From Thalassococcus halodurans (GTDB taxonomy: Bacteria; Pseudomonadota; Alphaproteobacteria; Rhodobacterales; Rhodobacteraceae): DNA of 64,000 bases. The notes under the pieces were generated by a model. It made no database searches. It was not told the origin of the DNA and was given only the letters and a program-made list of their open reading frames with translations. The stretch is taken from the NCBI RefSeq assembly GCF_900108225.1, contig NZ_FNUZ01000003.1, positions 372,001 through 436,000 of the forward strand, read 5' to 3'. A program made the translations under genes and the position numbers. This document shows positions 52,962 to 64,000 of this stretch, in pieces (the first letter of the stretch is position 1; every line of letters begins with the position of its first letter).

Positions 52962-54335
52962 TCAAGCAAGATTTGAGCGTAATACGTTAAGCCCAAGCGC
53001 CAAAGTCGCGTTTGCTGCGTCCTCGTCCTGCGCTTCGACGTAAAGGCGCAATTCGGGGGCATTTCCTGATGGTCTAACGTGCACGACCCGGCCATCCGTC
53101 AGATACATTCGCACGCCATCGGTTAGATCGGTTTTCTGTTCGGTCGAACCTAGCGCCGCCAGAAAACACGCGCGCGCCTCCGGATCTTGCGCCAGCTTGC
53201 CAACAAAAGCAGAAGAGCGGACCTGCGGAACGTCCTGAAGCCGGTCAGCGACCGTGATAACCCGCGGTTCGTGGGCGACGCGCTGGGAAACGGGGCCTTC
53301 ACCCGCCGCGACCAATGTCATGATCAAAGGCAAAACGCAGTCGCGCGTGATAAGCGGCGACAAGGTTCCGATAAGGACCGTGGCCTCGAACCCCAAAAGG
53401 AAACCGCCGTTCGCCTCGTAGCCGATAACCTTGCCGCCAGCCGCTTGCATACCGGCAATCACAAACGGCGATCCGATACGGGTCAGGTGGACGTTTGCAA
53501 AACCTTTGGCAGAAACACCGCTGTTCGAGGAAATGGGCGTGACGACAGTGTCGGCATCCAATGCCTCGGCTGTGATCTGGCCCATGACGTCGCCAGGAAC
53601 GATCTTGCCGTTTTCGTCAGCAAGCAGCGGCCTGTCGGAATCGCCATCCATCGACATCACGGCATCGAAGCCGTTCAACTGAACCCACGTACGGATGCTG
53701 TCGCGCGTTGCGCTATCGACCGCTTCGGTATCAACAGGAATGAACGTTTCGGAGCGTCCGAGTTCGGTCACCTCGGCCCCCAAAAGCCGCAGGATACTGG
53801 CCAGTACGTCGCGACCAACGGCAGAATGTGAGTAAAGCCCGATCCTTTTTCCGGCCAAAGCCGCACTTCCAAAAGCCGTCACGTATCGCAATACATAGCG
53901 AGAGTTCACTTCCGGATCGCTGACACGCTGCCCTTGGGCAACGGCCTGCACCGGCTTCTCCAAAGCCGCACAGATCGCTGTTTCATCCTTTTTGGCGATC
54001 TCGCCCGCGCGGGAATAGAATTTCAGCCCATTTCGATCCGCAGGTATGTGGCTGCCCGTGATCATGATTGCGCTGGCGTCCTGTTGTTGGGCCGTGAGCG
54101 CCAATGCAGGCGTCGGCACTTCGCCCGCGTCGATTGCAGTCATTCCCATGTTTTGGGCCGCAGTCATGACAATGTCGGCCAGGTTCGGAGAAGATGGCCG
54201 CAAATCACGGCCGACAAAGAGCTTACTTCCGACATCGCAGGATCGCAGGAAGGCCTGAACGTAGGATGTCACCAATTCCGGCGTCAGTTCCGTTACCAAT
54301 CCACGAAGCCCGCTGGTTCCAAACTTTGGTGACAT
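52962..54335 (-). CDS. Phosphomannomutase-family protein, unusual phosphoserine loop
   Basis: 457 residues from the ATG at 54335 (GTG two codons earlier is possible). It has FGTSGLRG at the N-terminus, metal loop DGDSDRP at residues 230-236, sugar loop GYEANGGFLLG and phosphate loop RPSGNAPELR. The phosphoserine loop is TGSHIPADRNG (Ser95) rather than the common TASHNP. It would convert mannose 6-phosphate to mannose 1-phosphate, feeding the mannose-1-phosphate guanylyltransferase at 60495. It is the third gene of the leftward unit after the export protein and a glycosyltransferase. Confidence 0.88.
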   Translation of the reverse strand: MSPKFGTSGLRGLVTELTPELVTSYVQAFLRSCDVGSKLFVGRDLRPSSPNLADIVMTAAQNMGMTAIDAGEVPTPALALTAQQQDASAIMITGSHIPADRNGLKFYSRAGEIAKKDETAICAALEKPVQAVAQGQRVSDPEVNSRYVLRYVTAFGSAALAGKRIGLYSHSAVGRDVLASILRLLGAEVTELGRSETFIPVDTEAVDSATRDSIRTWVQLNGFDAVMSMDGDSDRPLLADENGKIVPGDVMGQITAEALDADTVVTPISSNSGVSAKGFANVHLTRIGSPFVIAGMQAAGGKVIGYEANGGFLLGFEATVLIGTLSPLITRDCVLPLIMTLVAAGEGPVSQRVAHEPRVITVADRLQDVPQVRSSAFVGKLAQDPEARACFLAALGSTEQKTDLTDGVRMYLTDGRVVHVRPSGNAPELRLYVEAQDEDAANATLALGLNVLRSNLA

Positions 54336-54369
54336 AAACACCCCACGATTTACTGCATTCAGATCTTAT

Positions 54370-55539
54370 CTAACCTGATGCAAGCCTGACCGGCAAAGGG
54401 AAGTCGCAAACGTTTTCGTCAAATCCAATGTTTTTCAGCGCTTTGACAATGCCAGCGTGAAACCGGGCCTCGGTGAATTTACCAGCCTGTGCGGTGAACA
54501 AAGACGAGTCCGCCGACGCCAAACCGGATTTTAGGAACCTGTCTATTGCGCCGACCAAACTGTCGACGGTGGGATCATCAAAGAAAATCCCGGTCTGTCC
54601 GTCGATGACCGTATCAAGGACACCACCGCGACCATAGGCAATGACGGGACGACCCGCGGCCATAGCCTCGACAGGCACAATGCCGAAGTCTTCCTCGCCG
54701 GGAAAAATCAGCGCCCGACAGCGGCTGAGATAAGCGCGCAAGGTTGGGGCATCGACGTGACCCAGAAATTTCGTGCGTTGCCCTGCCAAAGAGTACAATT
54801 GGCGTATCTGCGCCTTGGATCCGCCGATGATGTTCAATGGCAAATCCATCTGTTTAAACGCCCGAAGCATCAGGTCAGGCCGTTTGTACGAGGCGAGATC
54901 GCCAACCCATAGATAGCTATCGCTGATTTCTTCTTTCGGGGCGGGCTGAAACGAGGAAACGTCCACCGGTGGCGCGACGACGGTAGCCTCTCGGCGCCAG
55001 TATTTCTGGATGCGTTTGGACACATGAGTTGAGTTTGCGACAAAACCATCTACACGCGCGGATGAAGAGACGTCCCACTGACGCAAGCCATGAGCGAAAA
55101 GGGGCATCACGGCCCTTTGCAGCGGACTGGCCTGTTCGCGGTACACATGGAACTGATCCCAAATGTAGCGCATCGGTGAATGACAGTAGCACAAGTGCGG
55201 CGCATCAGGCGGGGGCAACACACCCTTGGCAGGGCCGGATTCAGACGAAATGACCAAGTCGTATCCCCTGAGATCCAGCGCCTCGAGAGCGCGGGGCATT
55301 AAGGGGAGGTAGTTCTGATAGTGGCGCCTCGAGAACGGATATTGGGCAATGTTAGTCTCGATTATTCTATGGCGGCGCAATGTCGGACTAAGCTTTTCTG
55401 GAATAGCAACATGCGTGAAGATATCCGCTTGCGGGAACATCCGGCACAGCGATTCCAGAACCTTTTCGCCACCACGCATTCCCACCAGCCAGTAGTGGAT
55501 CAACGCGACCCGAGGCGCTTTTCTGGACCTGATGTACAT
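54370..55539 (-). CDS. Glycosyltransferase, GT4-type
   Basis: 389 residues. The GT-B fold is indicated by an N-terminal MRGGEKVLESLCRMFPQADIF and by the C-terminal donor-site pattern FPGEEDFGIVPVEAMAAGRPVIAYGRGG (E-X7-E). It transfers a sugar from a nucleotide donor during polysaccharide assembly. No membrane segment is seen. The gene starts three bases after the export-protein stop, so it is co-transcribed with it. Confidence 0.9.
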   Translation of the reverse strand: MYIRSRKAPRVALIHYWLVGMRGGEKVLESLCRMFPQADIFTHVAIPEKLSPTLRRHRIIETNIAQYPFSRRHYQNYLPLMPRALEALDLRGYDLVISSESGPAKGVLPPPDAPHLCYCHSPMRYIWDQFHVYREQASPLQRAVMPLFAHGLRQWDVSSSARVDGFVANSTHVSKRIQKYWRREATVVAPPVDVSSFQPAPKEEISDSYLWVGDLASYKRPDLMLRAFKQMDLPLNIIGGSKAQIRQLYSLAGQRTKFLGHVDAPTLRAYLSRCRALIFPGEEDFGIVPVEAMAAGRPVIAYGRGGVLDTVIDGQTGIFFDDPTVDSLVGAIDRFLKSGLASADSSLFTAQAGKFTEARFHAGIVKALKNIGFDENVCDFPLPVRLASG

Positions 55540-55542
55540 CGG

Positions 55543-56742
55543 TTATCCGTCGAAAAAGCTTAGGTCGTTAAGGCTGATAATCACCGTATCACCTGGCATC
55601 AGAGACAGGTTGGTGTCCGCAACCTCCAGCAATTCGCGCCCTGAGCGCGAGCTTTGAACACTGACGGTTTGGGTCGCTTCTTCTGACAGCAGGGCTGCGG
55701 CGAATTCCCCGCCGCTGAGCAATGCCAGTTGTTTAGCCAAACGGCGGTAGTTCAGCGTTTCTTGATCCAGCTTGGCCTGTGTCTGCATCAACTCAGTCAT
55801 CGCTTTTTGACGGCGGTCTTCGACAAAAGAAGACTTCGCCTTCAACACGTCCGACCATGCGCGGTCTGCCAGCAATATTGCCTGTTCGAGTTCCAGCTTT
55901 TTCGCCCGCGCATCTGCGTAGCGCTGTTGCGTAATCGCCTGTTGGGTCGAGGTCTGTAGACCCTTGGCAAGCAGCTCTTTCGAACGCGCCATTCCCTGTT
56001 CAGCCGTATCCAGAATTTCGTTCTGAACGGCCAGCTTCTGATCGAACAGTTCCTTTTGGCGCCACAGGTCGCCGACCTCTTTTTCCATAAAGGCAAGGGT
56101 TTCAGCGTAGTAGGACTGCTCTTGCATAAAGAGTGCTGTGACCTGATCTAACCTGATCTTGAAATTGACCGCAGTCGGTTGAGGAATACGGGAGATATCA
56201 GGCTCTAATTTAGCCAAATCCTGCAGTTTTGCGCTCAGCTTAGCTTCTTGCAGAACGAGCGTCGCCAATTCGTAGTTGGACGCCTTTCGTTGGCTTTCCA
56301 GCTCGATCTGCGCCCGCTCGAGTTCGATTTTGCTGATACCCCATTCCTGATGGCCTCCAGACATCGCCAAAGCGGTGGCAACGGTCATTCCCGGCGTGAA
56401 ATCGTAGCGGCCCGGACGTGCGACATCACCGAAGACGGTCACATGCGCATAGTTTGCAATGTCGATGGTGATGTCTGGATTTGAGTATAGGCCACGGTCC
56501 GCGAGAGCCGTTTCGATTGTGTGTTCCGCTTGATCCAGACTGAACCCTGAAACGGCGACCCCGCCCAAACCGGACAACCGGATTTCGCCATCCAGATCGA
56601 CCTTCATAACTGACGGCTCGGTGTCGCCTGGCAAAAGCAACTGCACCTCGTCGCCGACGATCAGCTGATAGTCGCCGGCCACCACCATGCTTGGCAGTGC
56701 AAGGGTAAGAGCCGCTAAGAGTGCTGGTTTCAGAGTGACCAT
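55543..56742 (-). CDS. Polysaccharide export protein (OPX/Wza-like)
   Basis: 399 residues. The signal peptide ends near VVAGDYQ; there is no lipobox Cys, unlike Wza. A polysaccharide export domain (YQLIVGDEVQLLLPGDTEP, VDLDGEIRLSGLGGVAVSG) is followed by an SLBB-like part (VTVFGDVARPGRYDFTPGMTVATALAMSGG). A long coiled coil then follows (about residues 140-350) and a closing beta segment (LSLMPGDTVIISL). It would form the periplasmic and outer-membrane export channel. It is first in the leftward unit and divergent from the SGNH gene. Confidence 0.88.
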   Translation of the reverse strand: MVTLKPALLAALTLALPSMVVAGDYQLIVGDEVQLLLPGDTEPSVMKVDLDGEIRLSGLGGVAVSGFSLDQAEHTIETALADRGLYSNPDITIDIANYAHVTVFGDVARPGRYDFTPGMTVATALAMSGGHQEWGISKIELERAQIELESQRKASNYELATLVLQEAKLSAKLQDLAKLEPDISRIPQPTAVNFKIRLDQVTALFMQEQSYYAETLAFMEKEVGDLWRQKELFDQKLAVQNEILDTAEQGMARSKELLAKGLQTSTQQAITQQRYADARAKKLELEQAILLADRAWSDVLKAKSSFVEDRRQKAMTELMQTQAKLDQETLNYRRLAKQLALLSGGEFAAALLSEEATQTVSVQSSRSGRELLEVADTNLSLMPGDTVIISLNDLSFFDG

Positions 56743-56808: not shown

Positions 56809-56916
56809 GCAGCGCATACAATCCGTTGCATCCGATGCGGTAGCGCACGGCGGCCTAAAGGCTTTTTAGCCAAACGCCCCAAAATTCGCGGTCAGCTTTT
56901 TCATAAGGGGTGCGAT

Positions 56917-59241
56917 ATGACCGAGAACGTGGTGGTGCAATTCGGAAACGAAGTCGCACGTAAGGATGTCCGATTTTTCACCGGCGAAGCGCTGGCGTTT
57001 CACTTTGACAGCGTTCCGACGGGCGCAAGCGTGGCCATCACGATCGCCGAGCATTCCCACCAATCGCCGCTTCTTCAACACGTGACGCAAGACAGCCAAG
57101 CGGTGCTTAGTACAGACGATCTTGCTGCGCTGCCCGAAGGTCAAAGCTGTGTCTACAACATCTGGCTGCTTGCGAACGGAGAGCAGGAACTGGTCCAGTA
57201 CGGAAGCTTGACGTCCCGTTCGACCATTCTTCCGGAAAACCTTTTGGGCATGACAACGGAAATCTTCTCGGCTGACACGCCGCCTACGCTTTTGATCGAT
57301 GGAGACAGCGTCATGGCGCATACCGGATTTCGCGATCTTCTGGTGTCGACTACGGGGGATGTCGCGCTGGTTCCGCCGGAATATAATCAGGCGGTCGGCG
57401 GTCATACGATCATCGACATGCTGGATAGCGCAGGCAGCGTGATTGAGCGGATTGTCCCAGACAATACGATTGTTGTGGTCGGGCCGATTGGCGCAAATCG
57501 TGAACTGAACGCGACTGTTGAAGATCATCGAGCGCAGATTCAGGATCTGTTTGACCGCTATGTCGCGGCTGGCGCGACGGTCGTTGCCGTGCCGACGTTA
57601 CCGGATGGTCGGACCAGTGCCGAAGACGTCGACCCCAATGGCAATGACGCATATTACGCCGAACTGGCGCAAATCATTCGCGATATCGCAGCGCTCAATC
57701 CGTCCGTGATTGCTGTCGATGTCTCTGGCTTTGATCCCGTGACCATGAAGGATGACCGGACACACCCCAATGTGTCCCATGGCGCCGCTTATCTAGCGGG
57801 GCAGACTGCCAGCACCATTCGCAGCCTTGTGGCGGGCAACCGGATGGACAATGCGGCGAACCGTTTGGGTGCGCTTGCCACATTTGACGGGGATACACCT
57901 GCCGCTGCAACGGGTGTCTCGGGCATCGTTCCGACAGGTTGGCAGGCTACACGCGCAGTGGGTACTGGAAGTTGGACGATTTCACGCGCCGTCAACAACG
58001 ACCTCATCGTATCGATCACCGATGCGCCGGACAAAGGCCAGCTACAGCTTAGAGTCGACGTCACAATGGAGGCCGCGACAGGCGAAATATTCGACAGCAT
58101 TTTTGAGGTGTCTGTCGATGCGGCCAGCACCGGTTTCAATGGCATCCAGACGCTGACAGTCGACGGCTCGATCCTGGGCGGGTATTTCGACGTCGCAGTC
58201 GCAAATCCACCCACTGAAACTTTGTATCCGCACGCAAAACTGGTCGCCTTGACCGCGGATAGAACCACCGTCCCTGCAATTCTTAGACTGTCTGTCGCAG
58301 CGGGTGGTTCGGTCACATATCGTGTGACGAAAGCCGGGCTTTTCAAAGTTGATTATGACCTTGGAACAACGCCTGTCATCTTGGTGCCCCCGACAAACAC
58401 AAGCCTGCCAACAATCGACAATCTGACACCGGTTGTAGGTGATACGTTGACGGCCTCGAACGGAGCGTGGAGCGGGTCACCAACCGCATATGCGACCCAA
58501 TGGCTGGCCGATGGTGTGGCGATATCCGGCGCAACCGAGAACATTTTGACGGTTGGGGCAGAACTGGAGGGGACTGCATTATCAGTCTCTGTTATTGCAA
58601 CAAATGCCGATGGCCAAAGCGCGCCTACGGTTTCTGCCGCAACCTCGGCGGTGACCGCGCCGGTGGCGAGCGCAATCGTCGCTTGGGACAGCCAGATCAA
58701 CAGCCCTGCGCCCGAGCAGCTGGCTTACAGCGATAGCGACAGGACAGTGTCGGCTACTGCCGCGATCAATGGTATGCGCCATACGCGGGGTGCGACCGCG
58801 ATTAGCGGAACGGTCTACTTTGAGATTGGCGCAACTGTCGGCGTAAACGGGTTGGGTATTTCCGGCGATACTATCGACTACGCAACCGGCGGCCAAAACG
58901 GTGTGTCCCGTTGCTATTGGTCGGGTGCATATGTTTTTCACACCGGCGGCGCGTCCTTTATGGGCAGCGGGAACACCATCGCGGACGGCGACATCATCCA
59001 GATCGCCATCGACACGACGACAAGCCAGTTCTGGCTGCGAAAGGCCGGAGACACTGTCTGGAACAACAACGCTGCGGCAGATCCCGCAACATCGACAAGT
59101 GGTTTCAGTTGCTCGGGCATGACCGGAGCGATCTATCCCTACGTGAATCTTAAAAATGATGCGGCAGCGCAGGTGGTATTGCACGGGTCCTCTGACAGGA
59201 TTGCGGGAACTGCGCCTGCTGGGTACGGGCCTATCGGCTAA
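56917..59241 (+). CDS. SGNH-hydrolase/Ig-like/SPRY-like multidomain surface or tail-type protein
   Basis: 774 residues with no signal peptide; an AAGGGG site precedes the ATG. Domain 1 (1-110) is a beta-rich module resembling phage baseplate or tail adaptors (YNIWLLANGEQELVQYGSL). Domain 2 (about 120-300) is an SGNH/GDSL hydrolase: GDS with Ser131, G161/G162, N194 in GPIGAN and DxxH with D280 and H283. A beta domain (300-480) and an Ig-like repeat (LPTIDNLTPVVGDTLTASNGAW, TQWLADGVAISGATENILTV) follow. Domain 5 (about 590-774) is SPRY-like (GTVYFEIGATV, IQIAIDTTTSQFWLRKAGDTVWNNN). It may de-acetylate or bind a polysaccharide. It sits inside the polysaccharide cluster and converges on a glycosyltransferase by 11 bases. 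Confidence 0.85.
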   Translation: MTENVVVQFGNEVARKDVRFFTGEALAFHFDSVPTGASVAITIAEHSHQSPLLQHVTQDSQAVLSTDDLAALPEGQSCVYNIWLLANGEQELVQYGSLTSRSTILPENLLGMTTEIFSADTPPTLLIDGDSVMAHTGFRDLLVSTTGDVALVPPEYNQAVGGHTIIDMLDSAGSVIERIVPDNTIVVVGPIGANRELNATVEDHRAQIQDLFDRYVAAGATVVAVPTLPDGRTSAEDVDPNGNDAYYAELAQIIRDIAALNPSVIAVDVSGFDPVTMKDDRTHPNVSHGAAYLAGQTASTIRSLVAGNRMDNAANRLGALATFDGDTPAAATGVSGIVPTGWQATRAVGTGSWTISRAVNNDLIVSITDAPDKGQLQLRVDVTMEAATGEIFDSIFEVSVDAASTGFNGIQTLTVDGSILGGYFDVAVANPPTETLYPHAKLVALTADRTTVPAILRLSVAAGGSVTYRVTKAGLFKVDYDLGTTPVILVPPTNTSLPTIDNLTPVVGDTLTASNGAWSGSPTAYATQWLADGVAISGATENILTVGAELEGTALSVSVIATNADGQSAPTVSAATSAVTAPVASAIVAWDSQINSPAPEQLAYSDSDRTVSATAAINGMRHTRGATAISGTVYFEIGATVGVNGLGISGDTIDYATGGQNGVSRCYWSGAYVFHTGGASFMGSGNTIADGDIIQIAIDTTTSQFWLRKAGDTVWNNNAAADPATSTSGFSCSGMTGAIYPYVNLKNDAAAQVVLHGSSDRIAGTAPAGYGPIG

Positions 59242-60301
59242 TCCCGCTGACTTCGGACAAATGGTGCCGGATCAGGTCTGCTGATCCGGCCCATGTGTAA
59301 CTGGCTGCGTGTTCAGTTCCCATGGCTGACAGTTCATCCCAAAGCTGGCTGGAGCCATTCAGCCTTTGGACGCACGTGGTCCATTCGTTGGCATCCGAGG
59401 GGTTTGCGAACATGGCCGCGTGACCGCACGTGTCCGGCAATGCCCCGCCGGTCGATGAAATAACCGGCGTGCCCAGCGCCATCGCCTCAAGCGGGGGCAG
59501 CCCGAAACCTTCGATGAACGACGGAAACAAAAGGGCCTGAGCAGACGCATAAAGTGCCCTTAGCTCGCCTTCTGAAACGCGCCCGATTGAGACCAGATTT
59601 CCCTTGTCAGCGCGCTGTGCGCCGCCTGCGAGAACGATTGGACGGTCTGTTTGAATGGCTTCCAGAAGGTCGATATTCTTATGTTTATGATTGCTGGCAA
59701 TCGCCAGAAAATAGCCCCTAGATGTCAACCCGTGCCGCGTCAAAACGGTCGTGTCAGGTTGGACACGCAGAATATGATCCGCGCCGTTCGGAATGACATG
59801 TGCCTTTCCCCTAGGAACGATGCCGAAGTGTTCCAACATCTTGCGGGAATAATCCGACACCGTGAAAACCACATCGGCGCGGCGGGCGAGTGTTGGCAAC
59901 AACAGGCGGTACCAATTCCGGAAGGACGCGCTGTAGCTTTCGGGTGCGGACCAGACTTGTGCGTCATGGATCATCACCGCCTGATGCCTGCGCAGCATAG
60001 GCCCCGTGTTGCAAAAATTGAGAAGCATCTGATTTTTGGAAAGGGCCGCGAGACTGCTCTGTTCCCAAAACGCGCCACCCCAGTGCTGAACCTTTCCAAA
60101 CGCCTCTACTGGCATCTCATCGGGTAGCGGAATGATCGTCTGGGCATCCGTTGGCACCACAATCTTTGGCGGCGGCACGCCATTTTGCGCAGACACATCC
60201 GCCAACGCGCAGGTTAATTCATAAGCCGTCCGATCAACACCTGTGGGCCTCCGCGTCAGGAAGCGGCCGTTGATTGCCAAATTGTCCAAGGCGTTTTGCA
60301 C
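59231..60301 (-). CDS. Glycosyltransferase, GT4-type
   Basis: 356 residues starting at a GTG. Motifs include the N-terminal AINGRFLTRRPTGVDRTAYEL, central MIHDAQVWSAPESYS and the donor site FIEGFGLPPLEAMALGTPVISS. It shares several of these patterns with the partial glycosyltransferase at the window end, so the two are probably paralogues. It transfers a sugar in polysaccharide assembly. It converges on the SGNH gene. Confidence 0.88.
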   Translation of the reverse strand: MQNALDNLAINGRFLTRRPTGVDRTAYELTCALADVSAQNGVPPPKIVVPTDAQTIIPLPDEMPVEAFGKVQHWGGAFWEQSSLAALSKNQMLLNFCNTGPMLRRHQAVMIHDAQVWSAPESYSASFRNWYRLLLPTLARRADVVFTVSDYSRKMLEHFGIVPRGKAHVIPNGADHILRVQPDTTVLTRHGLTSRGYFLAIASNHKHKNIDLLEAIQTDRPIVLAGGAQRADKGNLVSIGRVSEGELRALYASAQALLFPSFIEGFGLPPLEAMALGTPVISSTGGALPDTCGHAAMFANPSDANEWTTCVQRLNGSSQLWDELSAMGTEHAASYTWAGSADLIRHHLSEVSGISR

Positions 60302-60494
60302 AACGCACCCACTCTGATCTAGACCCGGATGCTGTACTCAGGGTTTAGAGAGGTTTCCAAACCGTTAAATTTTTGATGCGCATTGGCAACGCCTTGGAAG
60401 AGAACTGGTTTTTGACCCGTATTTCCTTAATGTGGCCTCTGTTCTCAGAAATGTTCACCACTTGGTAACCATTACAGTCAAAGGCTTGTGCATC

Positions 60495-61937
60495 ATGCAG
60501 AGCATCACACCTGTCATTCTTGCCGGCGGATCGGGCACACGGCTTTGGCCTTTGTCCCGCAAAAGCTATCCGAAGCAGTTTTCGCCCCTGATTGGCGACA
60601 CATCGCTGTTTCAGGCAACGGCCCGCCGTTTGCACGGTACTGCAGGTAAAATCAGGTTCGAAAAGCCTGTCGTGGTCGCCAATTCGGACTTCCGCTTCAT
60701 CGTGACCGAGCAACTGACCGAAGTCGGGATTGATCCGGGCACAGTGATGATCGAACCCTCGGGCCGGAACACTGCGCCTGCGGTTCTGGCTGCCGCGCTA
60801 CATCTGATGGATCGCAATCCCGAAGCCGTCATGCTGGTGGCCCCATCCGACCACCTCATTCAGGACAACGCCGCCTTTCACCAAGCCATCGCCAAAGGCA
60901 TGAAGGCTGTAAACGATGGGCGCATTGTGTTGTTCGGCATTCAACCTGACCGGCCCGAAACGGGCTACGGCTATCTGGAACTGGACACAGGTGGCGACGA
61001 TTGTCTGCCGCTGAAGGCATTTGTCGAGAAGCCCGATTTGACCACAGCCGAAGCGATGCTTTCGAAGGGGAACTACCTTTGGAATGCGGGTATCTTCCTG
61101 TTCCGCGCATCGGACGTTGTCGACGCGTTCCAGAAACACGCGCCCGAAATTGTTCCGCCCGTTCAGGCCTCTGTCAGCAATGCGCAACCTGATCTGGGTT
61201 TCTTGCGCCTCGCACCTGCCGACTGGGACCGCGCGCCAAATATCTCTATCGATTACGCGGTTATGGAAAAGGCGAGCGGCCTGGCCGTTGTGCCCTATAA
61301 CTCGGACTGGTCCGATTTGGGTGGATGGGATGCCGTCTGGCGTGCGTCTGATCAGGACAATTCGGGCGTTGCCGCAATCGGCAATGTGACAGCGATTGAA
61401 TGCAAAGACAGTATCCTTCGGTCAGAATCCGAACGACTGGAACTGGTCGGAATCGGGGTAGAAAACCTGATTGCCGTTGCCATGAACGACGCCGTCCTGA
61501 TTGCGTCCAAGGATCGCGCGCAGGATGTAAAGCTGGCCGTTGACCGGCTAAAGGCAAAATCAGCGACACAGGCTGAAGACTTTCCAAAAGAACACCGCCC
61601 TTGGGGCTGGTTCGAAAGCCTTGTCATCGGCGGCCGCTTTCAGGTGAAACGTATTCTGGTACACCCCGGCGCGGCGCTATCCCTGCAAAGCCATTACCAT
61701 AGGTCCGAACACTGGATCGTCGTCGAGGGCACCGCGCGTGTCACTGTGGACGACAAGGTCACTCTGGTGTCGGAAAATGAATCGATCTACGTGCCGCTGG
61801 GCGCAAAGCACCGGATGGAAAACCCCGGCAAGGTGCCAATGGTTCTGATCGAGGTTCAGACCGGAAGCTACGTAGGCGAAGACGACATCATTCGCTACGA
61901 GGACGTATATGCACGGGGACAAGGCGCAAAGGGCTGA
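60495..61937 (+). CDS. manC: Mannose-1-phosphate guanylyltransferase / mannose-6-phosphate isomerase
   Basis: 480 residues. The N-terminal nucleotidyltransferase (LAGGSGTRLWPLSRKSYPKQF, EPSGRNTAPAVLAAA, FVEKPDL) makes GDP-mannose. The C-terminal cupin (LQSHYHRSEHWIVVEGTA, ENESIYVPLGAKHRMENPG) is the type II isomerase domain with metal histidines. The ATG at 60495 begins family homology; a frame open to 60432 is not needed. It overlaps the next gene by 29 bases. With the phosphomannomutase it supplies mannose for this cluster. Confidence 0.94.
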   Translation: MQSITPVILAGGSGTRLWPLSRKSYPKQFSPLIGDTSLFQATARRLHGTAGKIRFEKPVVVANSDFRFIVTEQLTEVGIDPGTVMIEPSGRNTAPAVLAAALHLMDRNPEAVMLVAPSDHLIQDNAAFHQAIAKGMKAVNDGRIVLFGIQPDRPETGYGYLELDTGGDDCLPLKAFVEKPDLTTAEAMLSKGNYLWNAGIFLFRASDVVDAFQKHAPEIVPPVQASVSNAQPDLGFLRLAPADWDRAPNISIDYAVMEKASGLAVVPYNSDWSDLGGWDAVWRASDQDNSGVAAIGNVTAIECKDSILRSESERLELVGIGVENLIAVAMNDAVLIASKDRAQDVKLAVDRLKAKSATQAEDFPKEHRPWGWFESLVIGGRFQVKRILVHPGAALSLQSHYHRSEHWIVVEGTARVTVDDKVTLVSENESIYVPLGAKHRMENPGKVPMVLIEVQTGSYVGEDDIIRYEDVYARGQGAKG

Positions 61938-62946
61938 GTTGCTTCCGAACCTGCGCGCAGCACCCCTGACACGGGTCAAAAATCGCGATGCAGGTTTGGA
62001 CATTGCACGCGGCTTTGCGATGGTCCTTGTCGTCTTTGGCCATGCGCTGGTTGGTGCGCTTGGCGCTGGTCTTATCTCGGACAACGCAGAACGGGTTTTA
62101 ACCGCGATTTATGCGGTGCACATGCCGCTCTTCTTCATGATCTCGGGCTATCTGGCGCCCAGACTGATCAACCTTCCAACAGATGTTTTTGCAGCAAGGT
62201 TCTGGTCCCGATTGGTCTGGCCCTATCTGTTGTGGAGTTTGGTTTTGATGTCGGCCCATTTTCTAATGCGGGCCTATACAAATACCGCGATGACAGGCTT
62301 TCATCCTTTCACCATTCTGTGGAAACCGCCCGCAGTGATGTGGTTTCTCTACTATTTGGGCATCGCAATTCTGATTGCCCGCGCGGTGAGAGGGGCGCCA
62401 AATACGGTACGTGCAGCACTGGGCATGGCCGTTATCAGCGCGCCATACATCCTACCCGCCTTGCCCGACCAGACCCGTTTCATCGGCTTTTTTATCCTCG
62501 GAACGATGATCCCCAACGCGCGGGTTTCCGGAGCCTTCCCGAAATCATCGACAACGGTGGCAGTTATTATCACGGCCCTTAGTTTGCTAATGCTTTGGAC
62601 CCTGCCAATCGACAATACAGATGCGTATCCTGCGTCACAGATATGGCTATTACCGGCGGCATTTGCAGGGCCGTTTTTACTCTATCGAGCAAGCCAATAT
62701 GTGGCTCTGAATATGCCGAATGTTCCATTCATGCAGGTGCTTCGACTTATCGGACAGAACACAATGCCGGTTTTCGTTTTGCACATCCTGATAACCGCAG
62801 GAACCCGCATCGGATTGCTGAAAATCGGCGTTACAGACTGGGCCGTGATCATCTGCGCAGCGACCCTTCTCGGGCTGATTATTCCACTGTTGGCAGGCCA
62901 AATCGCCAATCGTGCAGGTATTGAGAAATGGCTTGGTTGGCGGTGA
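61909..62946 (+). CDS. Acyltransferase 3 family membrane protein
   Basis: 345 residues with about ten hydrophobic segments. The N-terminal DIARGFAMVLVVFGHAL holds the conserved Arg and His of the acyltransferase 3 family; YAVHMPLFFMISGYL is the second family block. Members O-acetylate or acylate sugars of surface polysaccharides. The ATG lies inside manC after a GAGGACG site. The end overlaps the last gene, so manC, the acyltransferase and the glycosyltransferase form one operon. Confidence 0.9.
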   Translation: MHGDKAQRAELLPNLRAAPLTRVKNRDAGLDIARGFAMVLVVFGHALVGALGAGLISDNAERVLTAIYAVHMPLFFMISGYLAPRLINLPTDVFAARFWSRLVWPYLLWSLVLMSAHFLMRAYTNTAMTGFHPFTILWKPPAVMWFLYYLGIAILIARAVRGAPNTVRAALGMAVISAPYILPALPDQTRFIGFFILGTMIPNARVSGAFPKSSTTVAVIITALSLLMLWTLPIDNTDAYPASQIWLLPAAFAGPFLLYRASQYVALNMPNVPFMQVLRLIGQNTMPVFVLHILITAGTRIGLLKIGVTDWAVIICAATLLGLIIPLLAGQIANRAGIEKWLGWR

Positions 62947-64000
62947 AGGCACGGTCGATCGTTATCAACGGGCGCTTCCTGAAGGACACAAACAGCGCCG
63001 TGAATGCGGTGGCGTTGAACCTGACCAAAGCATTGATCACCTCCGCCGATGAGAACGGATGGAAAGTACATCTTGCCGTGCCGAAACCGCTGGAAAACCG
63101 CGCAATGCAACTATCCCGCTCTGTCATCGCTATGGGCCAATCCACGGGTGCAGTGTGGGATCAGGTTTATATGCCCAAACTCCGCGAGGTCGGCGTGCCT
63201 GTGGGCCTGTTCAATTCAGTCCCGCTTCGAGGCAGCGGCTATGTCACGATGCTGCACGATGCCCACGTCTTCCGCACGCCGCAGTCTTACCGGTTCCCTG
63301 CACGGAAATGGCGGCAGCTGACCTCTCGGCGGGCTGGCGCGAGCGGCAACAGGATTTTAACGGTGTCCGAGCATTCAAAGCAGGCGCTACTTGCGCTCGG
63401 GATCGGACATGCGGACACGATAGGGGTGGTCCCAAACGGCCCAAGCACCGTCGTATCCACCAAACCCGACACCGCAGTTCTGAAGCGTTTGGAATTAGCA
63501 ACCGGCGCACCCTTCTGCCTCGGTTTCAGTTCGCTTCTACCGCATAAAAACGTGGCTTTCCTGATCGATGTATTCAGGGATCAACGGTTGGCCGACATCC
63601 CCTTGGTTCTGGTTGGCAACGCAACTTCCAAAGATTTTGAACGTATCGGATTGACCGTTCCTTCGGATGTCATCTTTGCGGGCCGATGCCCCGACGCAGA
63701 ACTGGCCGCGCTATATCAGGCCGCACAAACCGTTTTGATCCCGTCGCTGGAAGAAGGCTTTGGCCTGCCAGCGCTTGAAGCCATGTACTTTGGAAAGCAC
63801 CCCATCGTATCGCCCTATGGTGCACTGCCCGAGGTTGTCGGAAAAGCGGGCTATGTCGTGCACGACATGCGCCCATCTGATTGGGCCCGGTACATTGCCA
63901 AGATTTGCACAGGCCACGTGACCGCGCGGGATTGCCCACGGCAGCAGGCATCTCGATTTACATGGAACGCTGCCGCACAACGCGTCTGGGAACATCTGGA
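62928..64000 (+). CDS. Glycosyltransferase, GT4-type (partial, cut by window end)
   Basis: An open frame runs from ATG 62928 to the window edge (357 codons) with no stop; a GTG at 62943 overlapping the previous stop is an alternative start. Reading the translation gives INGRFLKDTNSAVNAVALNL, MLHDAHVFRTPQSYRF, VSEHSKQALLALG and the donor motif LEEGFGLPALEAMYFGKHPIVS. It resembles the glycosyltransferase at 59231-60301. It probably ends a few residues beyond the window, judging from its match to that protein's length. Confidence 0.88.
   Translation, partial: MAWLAVKARSIVINGRFLKDTNSAVNAVALNLTKALITSADENGWKVHLAVPKPLENRAMQLSRSVIAMGQSTGAVWDQVYMPKLREVGVPVGLFNSVPLRGSGYVTMLHDAHVFRTPQSYRFPARKWRQLTSRRAGASGNRILTVSEHSKQALLALGIGHADTIGVVPNGPSTVVSTKPDTAVLKRLELATGAPFCLGFSSLLPHKNVAFLIDVFRDQRLADIPLVLVGNATSKDFERIGLTVPSDVIFAGRCPDAELAALYQAAQTVLIPSLEEGFGLPALEAMYFGKHPIVSPYGALPEVVGKAGYVVHDMRPSDWARYIAKICTGHVTARDCPRQQASRFTWNAAAQRVWEHL

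Follow-up and report, generated by a model that had tools for sequence, protein, structure and literature searches.

A phage-tail-type SGNH hydrolase gene in an exopolysaccharide cluster of Thalassococcus halodurans and its possible use on a gene transfer agent particle

Phage G7C gp63.1 and its relatives are reportedly tail-attached SGNH deacetylases that act on the surface polysaccharide of the host. Gene transfer agents (GTAs) offer a related case: the GTA of Rhodobacter capsulatus (RcGTA) has the head spikes Rcc01079 and Rcc01080, also named GhsA and GhsB. According to PMC10218006, the head-spike genes adjoin the capsule genes that make the receptor. Proteins of phage origin that act on a receptor polysaccharide and are encoded beside its genes have precedent, and by analogy the protein described here is plausibly a further case with a different build. 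Its gene (positions 56917-59241, plus strand) lies among genes for exopolysaccharide (EPS) biosynthesis in a 64,000-nucleotide stretch of Thalassococcus halodurans DNA (contig NZ_FNUZ01000003.1, positions 372,001 to 436,000), hereafter the window, and corresponds to C6:428917-431238 of the 3.97-Mb genome. The original prediction, made from the DNA letters, had described a protein without secretion signal, combining a baseplate-like beta domain, an SGNH esterase, an Ig-like repeat and a SPRY-like end. We regard the phage-tail character of the protein as well supported and hardly in doubt. As to mechanism, we favour, if tentatively, a role on a GTA particle, closely followed by a domesticated soluble EPS esterase.

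The N-terminal domain carries most of the argument. Its approximately 108 amino acids have no Pfam family above cut-off and no PHROG sequence match; a weak match to Pfam RskA_C (E 0.006, 17.3 of 29.4 bits) fell below the cut-off. Residues 14-108 recur in other proteins. A profile from an alignment of five members (A1) was searched in 394 genomes of the family and 390 genomes of the order, and strong members were found in four Rhodobacteraceae lineages (six records), namely the window genome (G000) with G001 of the same genus, Salipiger bermudensis (G089 and HTCC2601), Carideicomes alvinocaridis (G272) and G250. All the strong members found sit among EPS genes. The same profile gave weaker matches (E 5e-10 to 5e-6 per genome) in G642, in G585 and twice in G506, all four in prophages: tape-measure proteins are encoded upstream at three of these loci (E 1.5e-77 in G642, 6.3e-65 and 5e-70 in the others), and the neighbours at the fourth are phage-like as judged from sequence. 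The G585 member and both G506 members are found at 100% identity on IMG/VR viral records, which confirms the viral listing of three of the four and adds no new member. The G642 protein has the N-terminal domain at its start, a PHROG tail-fibre match at residues 442-873 (E 2.7e-37) and, by eye, SGNH-like motifs at its end; the G585 domain matches PHROG 1084 at E 0.011. A reverse profile made of the four prophage domains alone recovered the EPS-type proteins among 1,907 open reading frames (ORFs; E 4.6e-13 to 5.9e-9) with no other match at E ≤ 10. This is a test of consistency, the four rows having been chosen by the first profile, while their genome contexts are independent of it. Two further matches, in G081 and G367 (E 0.004 and 0.005), were dropped because the ORFs are antisense to better genes.

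The structure of the domain was predicted by AlphaFold as a beta-sandwich (mean pLDDT 86.7, pTM 0.79) from an 8-row alignment that included three prophage-derived rows. With this model, Foldseek retrieved 11 PDB chains at E ≤ 1e-3, 9 of them belonging to a phage baseplate, connector or injection device; VIA listed eight entries with Z of at least 8, and seven of these are structures of phage tails, necks, connectors or baseplates. The best VIA match is the baseplate of Mycobacteriophage Douge (Z 10.8, rmsd 3.8 over 99 residues), and BFVD matches include named BppU N-terminal domains. As the fold alone is not decisive, the phage link was rested on profiles and genome contexts. The baseplate-like beta domain anticipated from the DNA is thus supported by profiles and predicted fold together, and the comparison with phage baseplate proteins shows a tail-like module.

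A scan of an 84,980-species collection, which was pattern-based, found four loci and missed that of G250; a class-wide search matched one of 289 genomes, the window's own. By tblastn, the N-terminal domain had just one match (E 6) among 50,697 phage records and none at E ≤ 1 in plasmids, and the corresponding domain of the G642 prophage had no phage match at E ≤ 1; viral contigs, scanned with the whole protein and also with A1 and A3, yielded no relative. A search with the G642 tail fibre returned 17 loci matching residues 119-236 only, none with the N-terminal domain (best score 9.4 bits, 964 ORFs); we read these residues as a common fibre linker. Prophage tail regions are the only other homes of the domain that were found, in keeping with a fibre meant for infecting or resident phages instead of a GTA, which would pseudotype matching tails or, made in excess, jam phage assembly. 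Against this speaks that the window's genome holds just one match to the domain (no search aimed at a prophage with a matching tail was made in it), and we consider the explanation the least probable of those weighed here.

The remainder of the protein also has phage connections. The SGNH blocks I, II, III and V occur in order, with GDS at 129-131 (Ser131), Gly161, GxN (Asn194) and DxxH (Asp280/His283), so that the catalytic residues named in the original prediction are intact in the sequence. This segment alone matches Pfam Lipase_GDSL_2 (PF13472) at E 8.9e-6 (26.8 bits, under the curated cut-off of 32.9) and PHROG 6102 'lipase' at E 6.8e-8; by tblastn it has no phage relative at E ≤ 5. The Ig-like repeat was equally recovered: residues ~484-590 match three PHROGs of phage proteins (E 1.5e-12 to 6.7e-10) and, weakly, a Hoc-like head decoration. 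A tblastn search hit 157 phage records, and the 40 listed all match through residues 453-612. Five family matches that depend on the Ig module alone (G182, G160, G049, G131 and G120) were not counted as relatives. The G160 protein (L018:12413-14923, 837 amino acids) combines a SASA domain (E 2.5e-20) with the same kind of Ig module and is encoded close to a contig end. The C-terminal ~185 amino acids have one clear relative, in G250 (32% identity), no PDB sequence match at E ≤ 1 and, by tblastn, a match in just one phage, listed as two records (E 0.5). The SPRY-like end was not confirmed: this part has no Pfam match at E ≤ 10, and the full-length AlphaFold model (mean pLDDT 41) was too poor and was left unused.

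The 774-amino-acid ORF was confirmed, with an ATG start and AAGGGG upstream; lysine makes up 1.0% of its residues. The gene to its left is read in the divergent direction, and the gene to its right converges with it, with an overlap of 11 bp. In G001 the gene has 96% identity and the flanking gene order is unchanged. Between these two genomes of the genus the ratio of nonsynonymous to synonymous substitution rates (dN/dS) is 0.191 for the gene and ranges from 0.012 to 0.325 for eight other genes of the cluster. The ORF is real and under purifying selection. As predicted, no secretion signal is evident: the N-terminus is not hydrophobic, and the highest 19-residue hydropathy mean, 1.46, occurs at residue 571, the signal peptide having been judged by eye and hydropathy and not with a dedicated program. 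A hidden signal peptide further upstream was rejected, as the 36 codons of open frame there contain no start codon, and the RTX motif GGxGxD was not found in the 774 residues.

The polysaccharide setting, including an acyltransferase, is borne out by the Pfam scan and the sequence (Table 1), and flippase-, Wzc-, sugar transferase- and Wzy-like genes, named from sequence, follow past the window end. In the other lineages, most names of EPS genes were confirmed by phmmer (E ≤ 1e-8), some of the reference proteins coming from these very clusters. The G250 cluster comprises Wza, the N-domain gene, two acyltransferase 3 (AT3) genes, a flippase, Wzc and a sugar transferase (L014), as well as Wzy, three glycosyltransferases and a phosphomannomutase like the window's (L068). 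Those of G089 and HTCC2601 comprise ManC, phosphomannomutase, Wza, the N-domain gene and a sugar transferase, with Wzc, AT3s, glycosyltransferases and Wzy further along in G089 (L066). In G272, the N-domain gene accompanies a sugar transferase, Wzc and three glycosyltransferases (L030), with Wzy on L067; an AT3-like gene at L067:1540-2613 was recognized from sequence only and had no phmmer match. The S. bermudensis cluster of G089 further encodes an RTX subtilase and a GH16 protein (L017:14414-19231), and another large GH16-like protein was seen, from sequence, at L066:15658-18831.

The enzyme that follows the N-terminal domain varies among these proteins. It is of SGNH type in the window and SASA in G272 (E 1.9e-15), and the SASA match in G089 is just under the cut-off (E 4.4e-5); in G250 SASA-like motifs are visible by eye, with no Pfam hydrolase match at E ≤ 0.1. 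A constant N-terminal domain with swapped catalytic modules is the typical construction of a receptor-binding protein. The distribution also bears on the idea that recombination left the gene in the EPS locus as a functionless prophage remnant or passenger. Such an origin would agree with the phage relatives of the modules and with G040, whose homologous cluster (Wza, three glycosyltransferases, ManC, flippase and AT3; phosphomannomutase not seen) has no N-domain gene and, in our reading of the translations, carries remnants resembling insertion sequences at a comparable position. The recurrence of such a gene in the EPS clusters of four lineages speaks against it, as do the intact ORF and active site; the dN/dS value already weakens it, and no other phage gene was noticed alongside in a Pfam scan of the neighbours. 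We consider a remnant improbable.

We propose that the gene encodes a phage-derived, receptor-processing fibre or tailspike that the bacterium has kept among the genes for its own receptor polysaccharide. In this view its beta-sandwich at the N-terminus would be the docking module of a phage-tail protein, and the SGNH domain would remove ester-linked acyl groups, probably O-acetyl, from the exopolysaccharide that the adjacent genes produce. Judging from the SGNH family and the gene neighbourhood, these would be the groups added by the acyltransferase of the cluster. The Ig and C-terminal modules would hold or present the sugar. The protein would be a cytoplasmic product lacking an export signal, would leave the cell by lysis and would most likely be mounted on a phage-like particle, for which the resident GTA is the first candidate.

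A second possibility, which we hold with somewhat less conviction, is that a captured phage tail esterase has been domesticated as a soluble enzyme that tailors or releases the cell's own polysaccharide with no particle involved, leaving through an unrecognised exit route or by lysis of part of the population. The gene lies inside the EPS cluster in all four lineages, an AT3-type gene is present in the four clusters (that of G272 from sequence only), the dN/dS of 0.191 resembles those of the EPS neighbours, and the G089 cluster, with its GH16 protein and RTX protease, includes other enzymes. Against this, the members scanned show neither a signal peptide, as judged by eye, nor a Pfam match to RTX, so the homologues in EPS clusters are not always secreted enzymes with signal peptides or T1SS signals. 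Moreover, a free enzyme would have no reason to retain a baseplate-type domain while its catalytic part is swapped, and the genes on either side of this one both lie on the opposite strand.

All 11 genomes tested, among them the five of EPS type, have the GTA marker PF13547 (GTA_TIM), which is uninformative, no genome without it having been met. NF048002, the NCBIfam family of the RcGTA spike base Rcc01079, was found in none of the five EPS-type genomes, the window's among them (G001 being 80% complete). The thought that the N-terminal domain replaces the spike base gains nothing from this, as only 23 of 90 genomes in the family have NF048002. The N-terminus of the window protein (MTENVVVQFGNEV) shows no Leu-Gly star peptide of the kind described in PMC7296036. 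A GTA head fibre of the known kind was rejected on these two grounds, no spike-base gene in the genome and no star peptide.

Spike-base genes do occur near polysaccharide genes elsewhere. NF048002 is found in EPS clusters homologous to the window's in G051 (E 7.5e-31) and G040 (4.7e-34). Of 27 known places (26 from the family survey and one in G642), 20 were sampled (loci L112-L131): within 18 kb, at least two EPS-type ORFs were present at six, one at two and none at 12. By the same count, made on plain ORFs, one of 17 control stretches had at least two; the controls were stretches at hand and not random ones, and the positive one (L083) owed its inclusion to a Wza-like match. The spike base of G049 (7.1e-30; L019, a locus fetched for its Ig match) has no EPS-type match within 11 kb. 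In G051 (L084:9959-12177), an AT3 gene and a sulfotransferase-like gene of an EPS cluster flank NF048002, behind which comes a 652-amino-acid SASA protein (E 2e-12) whose N-terminus, MRLGLTLGLG, is a Leu-Gly repeat; the two are probably a GTA head spike with an esterase domain. The earlier suggestion of a GTA fibre encoded beside its own receptor therefore survives in part: the placement agrees with the R. capsulatus precedent and with these spike-base genes in several genera, while the protein is not a head fibre of the known kind. Of the options in the original prediction, a GTA or tailocin fibre and a domesticated depolymerase are both still tenable.

TTAA-N7-TTAA is the full-site pattern of CtrA, a regulator tied to GTA production and to recipient ability in R. 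capsulatus. The only such site in the window lies between the SGNH gene and the divergent Wza-like gene, which it could equally serve; the promoter-like site that it overlaps (second hexamer ending at 56822) points into the SGNH gene. Control of the SGNH gene by CtrA is suggestive only, on the strength of this motif. A second site of this type in the same genome (L011:1513-1527) is upstream of the Wzc-like gene of the same EPS cluster, and both sites are also present in G001, too close a relative to count. Among the 20 spike-base genes, those of G002 and G075 likewise have CtrA-type sites, at a distance of ~120-150 bp upstream (L126:9239-9253 and L130:9590-9604).

A number of observations weigh against use on a GTA particle. 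First, at least one CtrA-type site occurred in 17 of 100 shuffles of the window (expectation 0.21 per window), and the 300 bp preceding the gene contain none in G250, G272, G089 and HTCC2601, which represent the three other lineages. Second, the N-terminal domain is rare (5 of 394 family genomes with the A2 profile, which added no new member) and, as the GTA marker is present in all 11 genomes tested, the protein could at best be a lineage-specific GTA part. Third, phage and EPS N-terminal domains share just 19-27% identity (window row), and a tree of ten of them, with long branches, gave no supported EPS/phage split or order. Fourth, non-phage Ig-like folds come close in Z (a human cytokine receptor 8.8, azurins 7.8); since the beta domain of SIAE, the mammalian sialic acid esterase, also reaches 7.8, the fold alone would be compatible with an esterase-borne beta domain of other origin. 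Finally, the N-terminal domain of the RcGTA tailspike TspA is said by its authors to differ from phage anchoring domains (PMC13420450).

Table 1. Features of the SGNH gene and its surroundings (window coordinates)
Feature	Position	Strand	Basis or remark
Phosphomannomutase-like gene	52962-54341	-	named from sequence
GT4 glycosyltransferase	54370-55539	-	Pfam
Wza-like polysaccharide export protein (Poly_export + SLBB)	55543-56742	-	Pfam
CtrA-type site TTAA-N7-TTAA	56794-56808	+	sole one in window; overlaps -35 of promoter-like site
Phage-tail-style SGNH protein gene	56917-59241	+	774 aa; 96% identity in same-genus genome G001
N-terminal baseplate-type beta-sandwich, residues 1-109	56917-57243	+	profiles both ways, AlphaFold, Foldseek/VIA
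SGNH/GDSL hydrolase domain, about residues 120-305	57274-57831	+	motifs, Pfam PF13472, PHROG 6102
SGNH residue codons	Ser131 57307, Asn194 57496, Asp280 57754, His283 57763	+	motif reading
Ig-like module, about residues 484-590	58366-58686	+	phage protein matches
C-terminal domain, about residues 591-774	58687-59238	+	common to G250 relative; SPRY-like not confirmed
GT4 glycosyltransferase	59231-60301	-	Pfam
ManC, mannose-1-phosphate guanylyltransferase / mannose-6-phosphate isomerase	60432-61937	+	Pfam
Acyltransferase 3 (Acyl_transf_3), possible acyl source for the polysaccharide	61909-62946	+	Pfam
Glycosyltransferase-like gene, cut by window end	62928-63998	+	named from sequence

In G051, an integrase-like gene (L079:10276-11490, from sequence) directly adjoins the Wza-like gene of an EPS cluster and may mark an entry site for mobile elements.

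The presence of head-spike genes of the R. capsulatus GTA beside capsule genes is already known. Here a second, structurally different phage-tail module, an esterase with a baseplate-type domain, occurs in the EPS clusters of four Rhodobacteraceae lineages; a literature search aimed at SGNH tail fibres in exopolysaccharide biosynthesis of Rhodobacterales gave no paper, and we do not claim absence from print. If the protein is particle-borne, the linkage of receptor synthesis with a receptor-processing protein would be a recurring principle, and how GTAs choose their recipients would become testable by one gene deletion. A bolder and, to our mind, doubtful generalization is that EPS clusters of Rhodobacteraceae carry lock-and-key cassettes, in which an exchangeable enzyme or spike, docked on a particle, moves along with the polysaccharide genes and recognizes and trims precisely their product. 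The window protein would then be a key of baseplate type, with a constant docking domain and a variable SGNH or SASA esterase, and a base of the Rcc01079 type with its fibre a key of head-spike type. A matched key for gene transfer would move with the EPS locus between strains, and the DNA carried by GTAs would be aimed at cells with the same coat.

Among described proteins, the N-terminal domain of BppU (phage TP901-1 ORF48) has a fold similar to the predicted one (Z 6.8), and phage proteins share 5-16% identity with it in structure alignments. The window protein resembles baseplate-docked tail proteins of phages in its N-terminal domain and differs in location, its neighbours being EPS genes and not a tail module. 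The same holds for the G642 prophage tail fibre (L037:7381-10008, PHROG 11419): like the window protein it joins the N-terminal domain and, by eye, an SGNH-like C-terminus in one chain, but it lies in a prophage tail module, has a different linker and its C-terminal part has no Pfam match. Deacetylases of the G7C gp63.1 type are encoded in phage genomes, whereas the window gene is in a host EPS cluster. TspA (Rcc02623), as described in PMC13420450, is like the window protein in acting on polysaccharide (a prediction in our case), in having an N-terminal beta-sandwich and in being transcribed apart from its neighbours. That description also sets the two apart, TspA being a trimeric beta-helix enzyme encoded by lysS; judged by its own profile matches, which give SGNH, the window protein does not look like a beta-helix tailspike of this type, and its gene is in an EPS cluster and not beside lysS. 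From the RcGTA head spikes the window protein differs in its baseplate-type N-terminal domain and in lacking the spike base and the Leu-Gly star peptide, yet it shares their genomic arrangement: the spike genes adjoin the receptor capsule genes (PMC10218006), and the window gene adjoins the genes of a polysaccharide that may likewise serve as receptor.

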